From Leucothrix arctica (GTDB taxonomy: Bacteria > Pseudomonadota > Gammaproteobacteria > Thiotrichales > Thiotrichaceae), in NCBI RefSeq assembly GCF_003172895.1, contig NZ_QGKL01000019.1, forward strand, positions 1 to 64,000: DNA of 64,000 nt, read 5' to 3'. A program made the position numbers and the translations under genes. Each line of letters begins with the position of its first letter. Within the stretch, counting starts at the first letter, position 1. Below, one piece after another: positions 46,888 to 51,339 of this stretch. The notes under the pieces were generated by a model. That model was not told the origin of the DNA, ran no database searches, and saw only the letters and a program-made list of their open reading frames with translations.

Positions 46888-48056
46888 CTAGTTGTTTTTA
46901 TCAGGCCACTTCCACATCGGCTCATCTAACATACCTTGACCAACCACAGTGGTTTGCCCCAAGTCCTTCTCTAAAGCAATCGAGTTGCAGTCTTGTGCTT
47001 GTTCTAAGGCAGCAATCAACCTTGGCGCGTGTGACACTACCCAAACCTGAGTCGACTCAGACGCTTTGATAATGAGGCGTGCTAATGAAGGCAATAAATC
47101 AGGATGCAAACTAGTCTCTGGCTCGTTTAACACCATCAACGGGGGTGGGCGTGGCGTTAACAATGCAGCCACCCACAGCAAATATCGAAGCGTGCCGTCA
47201 GACAGCTCAAAACCCGATAACGGACGCAATAATCCATACTGGCTAAACTCAACTGAAAAGCGACCACCCTCTTGCTTCAGAACACTTAACTCCGCCCCTG
47301 GAAACGCGTCGCTAATCGCATCGGATAAGGCTTGTGAATCACCTATTTCCTTTATCGTTTGAAGCGCTGCCGCCAAATCATGACCATCACTCGCTAGTAC
47401 AGGTGTCCGCGTACCCAACTGAGATTGCCGCGCAGATGCATCGACATCCGTTCGGAAGTGATCGTAGAAACGCCAGCCACGGATATTCTCTCGTAAAGTC
47501 ACCACTTCTGGTGTTCTAACAGGGTCAGCTACTTGACTAAATAAGCTATCAAAGGTGTTTGCATGGCGAGTAATAACATCCCAGTTACGGCCAGATCGAG
47601 ACTTGATAACTGAGCCTTCTCTCTCTATTAGCGAGCTTGCTGGACGATACGAATGGCCTGCCCAAATACACTCTTTCTTGATCTCAGGGTCTAGCGAAAA
47701 GCAGAAAGTGATGGGGTCGGTAAACCTAAAGAAATCGAATAGCCAAAATCATCACCTGAGAAGCCTAATCTCAGTCTAGCTCTATTTTTCATAGGGCCGC
47801 CCTGAACGGGCACTTCGCCGCTTTTCATTCTTTTATTGATGTTTTCAGGGCCAGCCCAAAAGGTAGAACCTAAGCCACCCTCTTGTGCTAAGGCGCTAAC
47901 AACGCCACCTTGCGCGGTTTCGGCTAGTAAACGAAGGGCTTTGTAGAGGTTAGATTTTCCACTCGCGTTCGCGCCTGCGACCACGTTTAAGTTACTTAGT
48001 GGGATGACTAGGTTTAGTAGTGATCGGTAGTTGCTGATTGAGAGTGTTTTTATCAT
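46888..48056 (-). pseudogene. AAA ATPase (AAA_21/OLD-like), frameshifted
   Basis: The N-terminal piece (48056-47691) begins MIKTLSISNYRSLLN and has Walker A in VVAGANASGKSNLYKALR, typical of RecF/OLD-type ATPases. The frame then breaks at a CCCC run near 47716. The next frame continues FCFSLDPEIKKECIWAG and ends with LRYLLWVAALLTPRPPPLMVLNEPETSLHPDLLP (given here only as landmark LNEPETSLHP, Walker B) and VVSHAPRLIAAL. Adding one C restores a single protein of about 390 residues. Such ATPases occur in defence modules and as solitary genes. It may be a recent pseudogene or a sequencing slip. Confidence 0.85.
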
Positions 48057-48110
48057 AAGGCTTGGCCGAAACAACATTTATTACTTTAATAAATATAACT
48101 TACTATGAAA

Positions 48111-48452
48111 TCAGCTTTGCCCCTTCCAGCTTTTAATTGCTCCTATTATGAAGCTTGCGGCTGGATGGTTAAGGGCTTGACCCAGCGCATCAATACTCCC
48201 ATCCTTAAGTGAACCCATAATTTTTTCAGCTAATGATCGATCATTCTCTATATGCTCAATTACCTTAGTCGCTGCTTCCATGTGAGCGAGAGATGTGGAG
48301 CTTTCTTCTGGTATCAGCTTCCTAATTTCTAATGCAATTTCATTAATTTGTTGGTTATTTGTAGTCGTATCATTTGTATGCGTAACACCACCTTGAACAT
48401 TTCCGACGACAATATTTGAATTATGTACACTGCCTATTTTTACTTTACTCAT
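48111..48452 (-). CDS. Small protein with N-terminal NSNIVVGNVQGG motif
   Basis: A 113-residue protein I do not recognise. Its first 25 residues contain SVHNSNIVVGNVQGGVTHTN, followed by a Thr/Asn/Gln-rich linker (about 25-38) and helical segments (about 38-110) such as STSLAHMEAATKVIEHIEND. The same motif ends the neighbouring DUF6232-like protein. Motifs of this NSN-x-VxGNV type are common at the ends of proteins in bacterial conflict systems and may mediate partner pairing. It is encoded 13 bases after the DUF6232-like gene and before the AAA ATPase gene. Confidence 0.5.
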   Translation of the reverse strand: MSKVKIGSVHNSNIVVGNVQGGVTHTNDTTTNNQQINEIALEIRKLIPEESSTSLAHMEAATKVIEHIENDRSLAEKIMGSLKDGSIDALGQALNHPAASFIIGAIKSWKGQS

Positions 48453-48465
48453 TATCCGCCCTGAT

Positions 48466-49056
48466 TTATATATTATTTACAACATCACCATCCACATTAC
48501 CACCAACAAAGTTAGAGTTATTAACTGACTCAATAGTAAAGTTATTTTCCTGGATTACTTCAGTCGTTTTAAAATTATAAGTTACCGCTCTTTTTCTGCT
48601 TTCATCATCAGATATGACTTGATACAAACTTGTAACAATGTCTTTTATAAAAAGCTCATTATTACTAATAAAAGTCTGATTTTTACCGCTATTTAGTTCG
48701 ATACTTAATCCATACTTAAACGTCTTTGTGTATGGCACATGGGATTTATGGCAAAGGTATGATACCAGAATGAGAATAATGCCTATAAGTCCAGCCATGA
48801 GCATAACGTAGTCGTTATATAAATCCTTGAACTTATAAACTAATAGCGCAACCAAAAATAGGATTATTACACCAAGCACCCACAATAAATTAACCCATTC
48901 TGGTAACGGGTTCTCATGGCTTTTACTACTTGAGCTTAGCTGCACAGAGGTTATATTTGAAATTTGGTATATTGTATTATCGAAGATCAATGCATTACCC
49001 CTTACCTTAAGGACATTGACCTCTAAAATACTTTCTTTATCGTGTTGATTTGACAT
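48466..49056 (-). CDS. DUF6232-like membrane protein with NSN motif tail
   Basis: A 196-residue protein. The start VNVLKVRGNALIFDNTIYQISNITSVQL, in pieces, has the DUF6232 opening. Two transmembrane helices lie at about 58-76 and 84-102 with a very short loop. A beta-rich C-terminal domain (about 110-165) follows, and the end is ESVNNSNFVGGNVDGDVVNNI in which NSNFVGGNVDGDV matches the start of the next protein. The function of DUF6232 is unknown. With the following gene it forms a compact pair with a shared motif. Confidence 0.6.
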   Translation of the reverse strand: MSNQHDKESILEVNVLKVRGNALIFDNTIYQISNITSVQLSSSSKSHENPLPEWVNLLWVLGVIILFLVALLVYKFKDLYNDYVMLMAGLIGIILILVSYLCHKSHVPYTKTFKYGLSIELNSGKNQTFISNNELFIKDIVTSLYQVISDDESRKRAVTYNFKTTEVIQENNFTIESVNNSNFVGGNVDGDVVNNI

Positions 49057-49154
49057 TAGACTGTTTTTCTAACAGCTGAATTAAGCTGGGCAGTATAAGA
49101 CAATACAGACAATGTGTAACCAAAGAAAACACTAACCCATGCTTTTTGGCTTAC

Positions 49155-49683
49155 TTAACGATCGATAAAAATATATGTTTGAACACTACCCGCCCTAAAT
49201 AATTGACTATCATCTAGAACAGATAAGCTGTGAAACTCTATAGAAGCATCTGTTAGATTAACTATGAGCTTCTTCTTTGGGTCTTCGTACGGTGATTTAT
49301 CAAGCTCATTACTATCATCACCGTCTTTTCTATGGCTAAACTTCTCCACCAGCTTTTCCGTACCCTCATAACACAGGTAAGCACCACCAACCATTAGCAC
49401 TGGCGCAATCAAGAAGGGAAGAAAAGCACTTAGCAACAATGCTAGCGGCAGCAGTATCACGACTTTGCTAAACAACGACCCCTTTGCGATACGCCAGATA
49501 ATCGGAAGCTCACGTGCTGGATCAAGCCCAATAACGTAGGCGGGTGTTACCGCCATCTATCACTACGCTAGCAGATTTTGACCCTGCCCGCATAACAGCA
49601 ACGCCAATATCATCGAGAGAGGCAGTAGCCAGTTTGGCTATCGCTGCTACATCGTCAAATAATGCTAAAATTCCACTGGCCAT
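49155..49683 (-). pseudogene. DUF808 (YedI-like) membrane protein, truncated
   Basis: The start codon at 49683 opens MASGILALFDDVAAIAKLAT and GSKSASVVID, the N terminus of DUF808. The frame then breaks near GATGGCGG, and the next frame continues AVTPAYVIGLDPARELPIIW and RIAKGSLFSKVVILLP, again DUF808. The usual protein is about 300 residues; here similarity ends at KSPYEDPKKK and about 38 unrelated residues follow. So there is both a frameshift and a missing C-terminal half. The break point borders the DUF6232-like pair, which may have been inserted here. Confidence 0.85.
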
Positions 49684-49896: not shown

Positions 49897-49932
49897 GACA
49901 TTAATGATACGTTATAACATATCATTAATGTC
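49897..49932. promoter_or_regulatory. 36-bp palindrome with Zur-like core
   Basis: GACATTAATGATA and TATCATTAATGTC are perfect 13-base arms around CGTTATAACA, itself palindromic apart from one pair. The centre resembles the TGTTATAACA core of zinc-uptake regulator sites, and it lies 58 bases ahead of a COG0523/metal-ABC operon. A Zur or Fur-family operator is the best reading. The long arms exceed the usual Zur box of about 20 bases. Confidence 0.65.
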
Positions 49933-49989: not shown

Positions 49990-51339
49990 ATGTCAGCAAC
50001 GAGTTCCACTATCCCAGTCACTGTACTCACAGGATTTCTAGGTTCAGGGAAAACCACCCTACTCAACCGTATTTTATCCGAGAACCACGGAAAACGAATC
50101 GCAGTCATCGAGAATGAGTTCGGTGAGATCGGTGTCGACAACGACTTAGTCATCGGCGCTGAAGAAGAAATATTTGAAATGAACAACGGTTGCATTTGCT
50201 GCACAGTCCGTGGCGACCTGATCCGCATTCTTAGTAACTTGCTGAAACGTCGTGACAAGTTCGACCACATTATGATCGAAACCACAGGAATGGCTGACCC
50301 TGGCCCAGTCGCACAAACATTTTTCATGGATGATGAGTTGCGTGAAGCAATGAGCCTTGATGGCGTGGTGACCTTAGTTGATGCTAAACATGTTTTACTC
50401 CACATTGACGACAGTGACGAAGTCAAAGAGCAAATCGCCTTCGCTGACGTGATCTTGTTGAACAAAGTTGACCTCGTTTCAACGACAGAGCTAGATCAAT
50501 TAGAAGCGCGTATTCACGCGATGAATTCGGCTGCAAAGATCTATCGTACACAAGACGCAGCCATAGATATGGATAACGTGCTGAACCTCGGAGGCTTCGA
50601 TCTAGATCGTGCCCTTGAAGTCGACCCTAAGTTTATGGAACCCGAATATCCGTTTGAATGGAGTGGATTGTATGCGCTTGAGGCCGGTGACTACCGATTT
50701 CTTCTGGGCGCAGGTCCAGACCCAGCAATGAATATGAATTTTCGTTCCGCAGAAGCCGCAAGCGAGACTGCGATGCGAGAAACAGTCGAGAAAGCCGTAC
50801 TCGTTTTCTCCGATAATGAAGTCGAGCTGCAAACAGGTGCGGTGATCGAACCCAGCGAACAATTGAGTCAAATCAATCTAGAAGGCGATCAACTAGAGTA
50901 CATACTGCGCGTACCCGCAGCTGGCGCTTATACCCTGTTTACTGAGCATCATCCTGATGAATTTGAAGCCTACATTACAGATGCTCAGGGTAATCGAGTA
51001 GAAGCGAGTTTTGAGCGTGAGTACAAGCCAGACCATGAACATGATGAAGACGTTACATCCGTAGGCATTAATACACAGGGTGATTTAGACCTAGACAAGT
51101 TTCAAGAATGGTTGCGAGTATTACTGGCTGAGCAAGGCGCTGATATCTTTCGCATGAAGGGTATATTGTCTTTTTCTAATTCAGAAAAACGTTACGTATT
51201 TCAGGGTGTTCATATGTTGTTCGATGGACGCTCTGACCGTCCTTGGCGCGAAGGCGAGCGTAACAATTCACTCATATTCATTGGGCGAAACCTAGACCGC
51301 GAAGCGCTAAATGCAGGGTTCAATTCATGTCTGACATAG
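49990..51339 (+). CDS. COG0523/CobW metallochaperone GTPase with inserted domain
   Basis: A 449-residue G3E GTPase. Walker A is GFLGSGKTTLLNR (about 14-26), the metal motif is GCICCTVRGDL with CxCC, and NKVD gives base specificity. GTPases with CxCC bind Zn(II) and deliver it or keep it for enzymes. Uncommon is a segment of about 150 residues (about 205-355) between the GTPase and the C-terminal CobW_C domain: EWSGLYALEAGDYRFLLGAG, TLFTEHHPDEFEAYIT and YKPDHEHDEDV, of which the last is a His/Asp-rich possible metal site. It heads an operon behind a Zur-like palindrome, so zinc starvation is the likely trigger. Confidence 0.88.
   Translation: MSATSSTIPVTVLTGFLGSGKTTLLNRILSENHGKRIAVIENEFGEIGVDNDLVIGAEEEIFEMNNGCICCTVRGDLIRILSNLLKRRDKFDHIMIETTGMADPGPVAQTFFMDDELREAMSLDGVVTLVDAKHVLLHIDDSDEVKEQIAFADVILLNKVDLVSTTELDQLEARIHAMNSAAKIYRTQDAAIDMDNVLNLGGFDLDRALEVDPKFMEPEYPFEWSGLYALEAGDYRFLLGAGPDPAMNMNFRSAEAASETAMRETVEKAVLVFSDNEVELQTGAVIEPSEQLSQINLEGDQLEYILRVPAAGAYTLFTEHHPDEFEAYITDAQGNRVEASFEREYKPDHEHDEDVTSVGINTQGDLDLDKFQEWLRVLLAEQGADIFRMKGILSFSNSEKRYVFQGVHMLFDGRSDRPWREGERNNSLIFIGRNLDREALNAGFNSCLT

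Follow-up and report, generated by a model that had tools for sequence, protein, structure and literature searches.

Two adjacent short genes on the reverse strand of a 64,000-nucleotide stretch of DNA from Leucothrix arctica (contig NZ_QGKL01000019.1, positions 1 to 64,000), the whole of which is called the window here, encode a DUF6232 membrane protein and a small partner protein that carry matching tags at their facing ends. The DUF6232 protein (196 amino acids, 48466..49056) was assigned to its family with Pfam (PF19744, E 8e-9, 36.4 bits, cut-off 27.4; 37.2 bits in the genome search) and further described with an AlphaFold2 (AF2) model and VIA-align. The gene of the small partner (113 amino acids, 48111..48452) starts 13 nucleotides downstream; the protein, known from open reading frame (ORF) reading and from its cyanobacterial relatives, consists of an N-terminal tag and a putative helical adaptor domain. 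The tags, delimited by their alignment to each other, are residues 175-194 of the DUF6232 protein (48475..48534) and residues 6-25 of the small partner (48378..48437). They lie within stretches whose predicted local distance difference test (pLDDT) values are below 50 (residues 171-196 and 4-28, respectively). The ORFs read in the window agree with those described earlier for this region. Here we describe this pair and its relatives, whose matching tags suggest a plug-and-socket signalling module akin to bacterial immune-type signalling.

The two tags of the window align without gaps over 20 residues, 12 of which are identical (M and W not counted). Their score is 54, compared with a mean of 25.5 (standard deviation 4.8) after shuffling, and none of 500 shuffles reached 54. 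Outside the tags the scores are at background (25 for the remainder of the DUF6232 protein, 24 for the remainder of the small protein). This bears out an earlier note, made from the sequence alone, according to which the end of the membrane protein and the start of its 113-residue neighbor carry a common motif. Same codons are used for 3 of the 12 identical residues, whereas 3.9 were expected, which argues that the match in the window has been maintained at the protein level.

A scan with the small protein yielded three cyanobacterial loci, in one of which (L002) a DUF6232 gene lies directly upstream. Two plasmid records of Trichormus variabilis, identical in length and probably representing one plasmid, matched both proteins, and the pair was read in one of them. 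In genome samples drawn by the search tool, DUF6232 was present in 9 of 292 genomes of the cyanobacterial phylum and in 33 of 243 genomes of the order (the two samples overlap), as well as in 17 of 398 genomes of the window's own phylum, 8 of which scored above the cut-off. Of the 369 genomes of the window's class, one, namely that of the window itself, yielded the long, tailed form; in G501, a genome of the same class, the DUF6232 match covers part of the profile only. Two scans of viral contigs for relatives yielded none. The fetched regions contain 56 DUF6232 ORFs: 30 with a tagged tail and a small partner, one long ORF without a partner (L091) and 25, mostly of 116-159 amino acids, with neither; L091 and the 25 were excluded from the pairs. 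The tagged tail and the partner are confined to the long form (166-266 amino acids as read here), and outside the window the partner lies 4-145 nucleotides downstream of the DUF6232 gene. Pairs were identified partly through the tag scores of neighbors, and the weak pairs L082, L083 and L061 were retained. The DUF6232 protein and the small protein are a conserved gene pair, present at 30 loci including the window. The search for DUF6232 genes beside a protein with the same motif, proposed in the earlier note, thus revealed a neighborhood that recurs in cyanobacteria, and the suggestion that shared end motifs mark partner proteins holds for a conserved two-protein module. At L092, L093 and L094, three tandem DUF6232 genes each occur without tags or small partners; the neighbor scores of 58-67 at these loci derive from the tandem paralogues, which were not taken as partners.

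Among the 30 pairs, the tag score averaged 74.8 with the own partner and 36.4 with foreign partners (0 of 20000 permutations); for 17 of the 30 tails no foreign partner outranked the own one. In a non-redundant set with less than 60% body identity, for which 10 of the 30 pairs were dropped, the respective averages of the remaining 20 were 71.5 and 33.1 (0 of 20000 permutations), with the own partner first in 14. Tail-to-tail similarity and similarity among the N-termini covary beyond what body similarity accounts for (partial r 0.43, 0 of 5000 permutations). Composition-preserving shuffles never reached the observed score (0 of 500) in 17 of the 20 pairs. The tags are rich in Gly, Val and Asn, with patterns such as I-x-I-x-G-x-V-x-G-x-V; they differ among loci and are, on average, matched within a locus. 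A single fixed motif was therefore rejected: the NSN-x-VxGNVxGxV-type motif named in the earlier note is matched within most loci, but its sequence varies between them.

The codons behind the matched residues tell two histories. Same-codon use was 147 of 273 overall, against 99.6 expected. It was particularly high in L077 (27/27), L007 (19/21) and L075 (17/22), below expectation in L062, L069 and L088, and about equal to it in L090 (8 versus 7.9). Because same-codon use is high at some loci and at or below chance at others, it seems that tags are copied between genes and that matching also outlasts silent-site divergence. The excess in L007, L075 and L077 would suit an account in which the tags have no function and are low-complexity Gly/Val/Asn ends, copied between neighboring genes by slippage or gene conversion. 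We regard this as very improbable, since residues remain matched where shared codons are fewer than expected (the window, L062, L069 and L088) or about as many as expected (L090), and since the shuffles that preserve composition fell short in 17 of 20 pairs. In L077 (5485-6583), the DUF6232 tail and the partner N-terminus have each expanded the same short Ser-Gly-Asn-Val repeat, a case of parallel repeat growth in two genes.

The AF2 model of the DUF6232 protein (mean pLDDT 60.6, from an alignment of only 2 sequences) consists of strands, a two-helix hairpin and further strands, followed by a disordered tagged tail. The hairpin (model helices 53-75 and 82-105; 48742..48900) is a predicted membrane hairpin according to the AF2 secondary structure and its hydrophobic sequence. 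In VIA-align, chains of the pleckstrin homology (PH) domain or PH superfamily, recognized by title or recall, made up most of the 50 rows listed; the best row had a Z of 8.4 over 82 residues at a root mean square deviation of 3.6, a range of Z values that, by the tool's own note, may reflect merely a common arrangement. The model suggests a PH-like beta domain that is split by a two-helix membrane hairpin and ends in a disordered tagged tail. Foldseek returned nothing at E<=0.001 for the models of either protein, and a sequence search of the PDB with both proteins gave a best E of only 0.015. With PADLOC 2.0.0 the sole match of the DUF6232 protein was CARF_TM (E 0.018). A single literature search on DUF6232 found no paper.

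The model of the small protein (mean pLDDT 71.6, 4 sequences in the alignment) has five helices and a disordered tag; the helices form the putative adaptor domain (residues 28-112, 48117..48371). Its VIA-align rows were helical and uninformative (best Z 5.0). No match up to E=1 was obtained for the small protein in Pfam, NCBIfam or PADLOC. The member of the family at L007 matched DnaB_bind with 21.4 bits (cut-off 20.6), which is an implausible Pfam match, and the helical domain is without a credible Pfam or NCBIfam match. Pfam includes effector-associated domains (EADs), and none was among the Pfam matches of the proteins with the small domain. A profile built from seven members of the helical domain matched in 60 of the 120 genomes that were sampled from a single cyanobacterial order. 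Among the 30 such loci listed, the domain stands alone or is terminal in pentapeptide, NACHT, Roc-COR, TPR, AbiTii and other proteins; fusions include NACHT (L125), AbiTii (L134), Roc-COR (L140), COR (L121) and a long TPR protein (L139). To judge from these sequences, the small domain may be a general adaptor, widespread in cyanobacteria beside or fused to signal transduction ATPases with numerous domains (STAND NTPases) and Roc-COR GTPases. One protein of L116 (907-1857) contains two similar tag-like stretches, the second directly before the helical domain.

Matched tags were also sought where the small domain occurs apart from DUF6232 pairs. At 44 such loci, up to 60 residues preceding the helical domain were compared with all non-overlapping ORFs of the locus. 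Of 45 loci given, all but L184 yielded a segment; 40 were chosen by us from the helical-domain matches and are mostly short open frames, and five (L003, L008, L009, L116 and L118) had been seen earlier, three of them already suspected to be matched. At 14 of the 44 loci the best local match exceeded those of all 43 foreign segments (about one expected), and 19 scored at least 50; with the five previously examined loci left out, the figures were 11 of 39 and 15 of 39. L116 and L163, both misses, are one place. The matched neighbors ranking first include a NACHT-peptidase S26 protein (L003), a NACHT-HEAT protein (L197), an LRR-Roc-COR protein matched at its C-terminus (L182), a DUF4062 protein (L170) and a TRADD-N-pentapeptide protein (L177); those ranking second include a NACHT-peptidase S26 protein (L162), a NACHT protein (L009) and NB-ARC proteins (L191 and L195). 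The module is wider than the earlier note held, given these tag-matched neighbors beyond DUF6232. Two of the NACHT proteins, at L003 (6333-8804) and L162 (1822-4386), have a C-terminal signal peptidase-like (Peptidase_S26) match and adjoin tag-matched small adaptors. On a Fischerella plasmid (L008, 2924-3793), a different protein, hydrophobic at its N-terminus and not assigned to any Pfam family, has a tag in common with the next small adaptor gene.

These partners bear on a toxin-antitoxin account, by which DUF6232 would be a small membrane toxin neutralized by the 113-residue protein through tag pairing. The two short, closely spaced genes (13 nucleotides apart in the window, 4-145 in other pairs), a recognition that is specific on average, the low-GC setting and the related pair on the Trichormus plasmid are all in keeping with it. 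However, the small domain is widely fused to large proteins including NTPases, unlike usual antitoxins, and its tag-matched neighbor at other loci is a NOD-like receptor (NLR) or a GTPase, so that we consider this account quite improbable. A broader reading for cyanobacteria, which we advance tentatively and at somewhat below even chances, is that one promiscuous helical adaptor carries private, locus-specific N-terminal tags and thereby forms many separate signalling pairs per cell, with DUF6232, NACHT/NB-ARC NLRs, a Roc-COR GTPase and others as partners. Selection together with local gene conversion would keep each tag matched to that of its own partner, and the tags would act as an expandable set of orthogonal plugs that do not always depend on an NLR and are in part amyloid-like.

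In 21 of the 30 pairs, the DUF6232 gene has a divergent gene for a helix-turn-helix (HTH) protein in head-to-head orientation, compared with 1 of 22 other fetched loci (13 cyanobacterial and 9 proteobacterial, of which L089 and L109 gave no DUF6232 ORF). The divergent genes encode, for example, an HTH-NB-ARC protein (L061), an ATPase_2-like protein with NB-ARC just below the cut-off (L063), HTH proteins with pentapeptides (L066 and L075) and an HTH protein with no family above the cut-off (L065); in L002 a NACHT-TIR gene is located about 0.9 kb upstream. The pair might thus serve membrane-tethered regulation, in which the tag is a stable dimerization strip instead of a switchable polymer and the divergent HTH gene is under the control of the pair, in an anti-sigma-like or stress role. 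The frequency of that gene, the weak sigma-factor-like matches of HTH proteins and the occurrence of some that lack NB-ARC and show pentapeptides only or nothing recognized speak for such a role. We nevertheless hold it to be rather unlikely: the HTH gene was not found at the window, L002, L007 and L077, whereas L061 and L067, at a similar distance (31-32% identical), have it, and the helical domain also occurs with NACHT, Roc-COR and AbiTii proteins.

The reading to which we give a little better than an even chance is a matched-tag signalling module, in which the tags co-assemble, perhaps in an amyloid-like manner, and couple a PH-like membrane protein to an adaptor of the STAND network. Each tag would be unfolded alone and fold on contact with its counterpart, the two co-assembling as beta structure that is possibly amyloid-like, and tag identity would select which two proteins meet. 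The hairpin-anchored, PH-like DUF6232 protein would represent the membrane end, either as effector or as membrane sensor, and the small protein would be the adaptor linking it to a sensor. In many cyanobacteria the HTH or HTH-NB-ARC protein of the divergent gene may be this sensor or trigger. Upon assembly, DUF6232 would be brought together in clusters, leading to a membrane change or to a stress or cell-death response.

Several findings weigh against this matched-tag module. Within the non-redundant set, the own partner ranks only 9th of 20 in L082 and 8th of 20 in L083, with 5 and 4 of 500 shuffles, respectively, reaching their scores (1 of 500 in L065). For twelve of the 20 tails, some other DUF6232 tail is as similar as the own partner or more so, and common descent thus accounts for much of the tag similarity. 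L091 has a long DUF6232 protein without a tagged partner. No matched neighbor scoring at least 50 was present at 25 of the 44 small-domain loci, and in L173, one of the 14 matched loci, the neighbor itself holds the helical domain and may therefore be a duplicate. No amyloid-motif family was among the Pfam matches, and the AF2 models, built from 2-4 sequences, are of low-to-moderate confidence. No HTH/NLR gene was found beside the pair in the window or at L002, L007, L062, L074 (where the 145 nucleotides available upstream cannot tell), L077, L088 (where an HTH-like ORF was seen by eye and left unscored), L090 and L096; as the window and these eight other pair loci yielded none, such a gene is not obligatory.

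Regarding the surroundings of the pair in the window, its GC content is 33-37%, compared with 41-50% in the flanks shown and 39.6% just upstream. A DUF808 gene remnant (49155..49683, reverse strand), frameshifted and cut, with a Pfam match that stops at profile position 126 of 302, marks the insertion edge and is placed outside the module. The pair sits in an A+T-rich patch that looks like newly arrived DNA, in view of its low GC content, the adjoining cut DUF808 gene and the only long-form DUF6232 among the 369 genomes of the class. Of 57 related genomes searched, only that of the window yielded the small protein, and for this reason the copy is most plausibly a singleton gained by horizontal transfer; it is a lone pair without the usual HTH/NLR neighbor. 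The truncated DUF808 gene of the earlier note is confirmed, and its view of the surroundings as inserted DNA is supported. Synteny was followed via the CobW-family gene at 49990, which the other six genomes of the genus match best at about 43-50% and over part of the gene only, so that no empty site was seen. A search for target-site repeats gave no more than short direct repeats in two copies and two pairs of inverted repeats, and promoter- and terminator-like sites did not rise above the level of shuffled sequences. Just upstream of the CobW-family gene, which is followed by ABC-transporter-like genes, lies a near-perfect palindrome (49897-49932) of two 18-nucleotide arms that are 94% complementary; it presumably resembles a Zur zinc-regulon operator.

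On the other side of the pair, on the same strand, lies an AAA_21/AAA_15 ATPase gene (46888..48077), whose reading frame shifts at about 47.69 kb and leaves it in two pieces, as had been noted earlier. A three-component defense island including this ATPase, as the earlier note had it, would be in line with its position adjoining the pair and with the PADLOC models that match it, HEC-01A among them. Intact relatives of the ATPase, 71-73% identical, occur in G001, G003, G006, G021 and G045 among unrelated neighbors, and the small protein was not found in these genomes (of which G001 is 56% and G006 64% complete). No ATPase relative was found among the ORFs at the 29 remaining pair loci, and in the window the ATPase is broken while both tagged genes are open. 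Because its intact relatives are orphaned and none accompanies the other 29 pairs, the ATPase was rejected as a third component and is judged a bystander outside the module; a three-component island is the least probable of the accounts considered here. The description of the ATPase as OLD-like is correct only in a broad sense: neither piece has a Toprim match in Pfam at E<=1, and the PADLOC model ATPase-Toprim_I-B matches merely short ATPase stretches of both. In this respect it differs from OLD-type nuclease systems.

As to known anti-phage systems, the models of PADLOC 2.0.0 are not matched by the two tagged proteins together, and the small protein matches none. The window protein is a member of the DUF6232 family (PF19744), in which tagged tail and partner belong to the long form only and are both absent from 25 other ORFs; the pair offers a first lead on this long form and on a helical domain that is widespread yet belongs to no Pfam family. 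A review of 2021 asks, in the passage cited, whether bacterial signalling amyloids exist outside NLR-dependent pathways (PMC7889193). With a tagged membrane protein, a small adaptor and no adjoining NLR in the window, this question becomes testable with two short peptides, and the naturally varying matched tags provide many ready-made specificity swaps.

The closest likenesses are to two kinds of signalling element. The bacterial amyloid signalling sequences (BASS) are described in the cited parts of three papers as motifs matched across adjacent genes in Bell-effector/NLR pairs, reported from filamentous actinobacteria and cyanobacteria and associated with NLRs, CHAT and TIR domains (PMC7889193, PMC8086366, PMC12261475). 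As in BASS so described, a short motif is matched here between adjacent genes, being C-terminal in a membrane-type protein and N-terminal in the protein next to it. Unlike in BASS, the tag-bearing partner in the window is a small helical putative adaptor with no Pfam match and not an NLR (NB-ARC/NACHT), and the C-terminal tag is on DUF6232, a putatively PH-like protein with a predicted membrane hairpin. The tags vary from locus to locus. At some other loci the tag-matched neighbor of the small domain is a NACHT or NB-ARC protein. The module appears to resemble BASS by analogy, and it is not filed as a BASS system, since the gene pair and the motif agree, the window lacks the NLR and the amyloid feature is putative. 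EADs and the Death-like or TRADD-N adaptors are, in the passages cited, small, mostly helical, terminal domains of many effector and STAND proteins of multicellular bacteria, proposed to act through homotypic contacts (PMC7159879, PMC8195603). The helical domain is like them in being a small terminal domain common to effector and core NTPase proteins (AbiTii, NACHT, Roc-COR, TPR and pentapeptide proteins) that also occurs alone; unlike in EADs as characterized there, the choice of partner seems to be set by a short variable tag in front of the helical domain.

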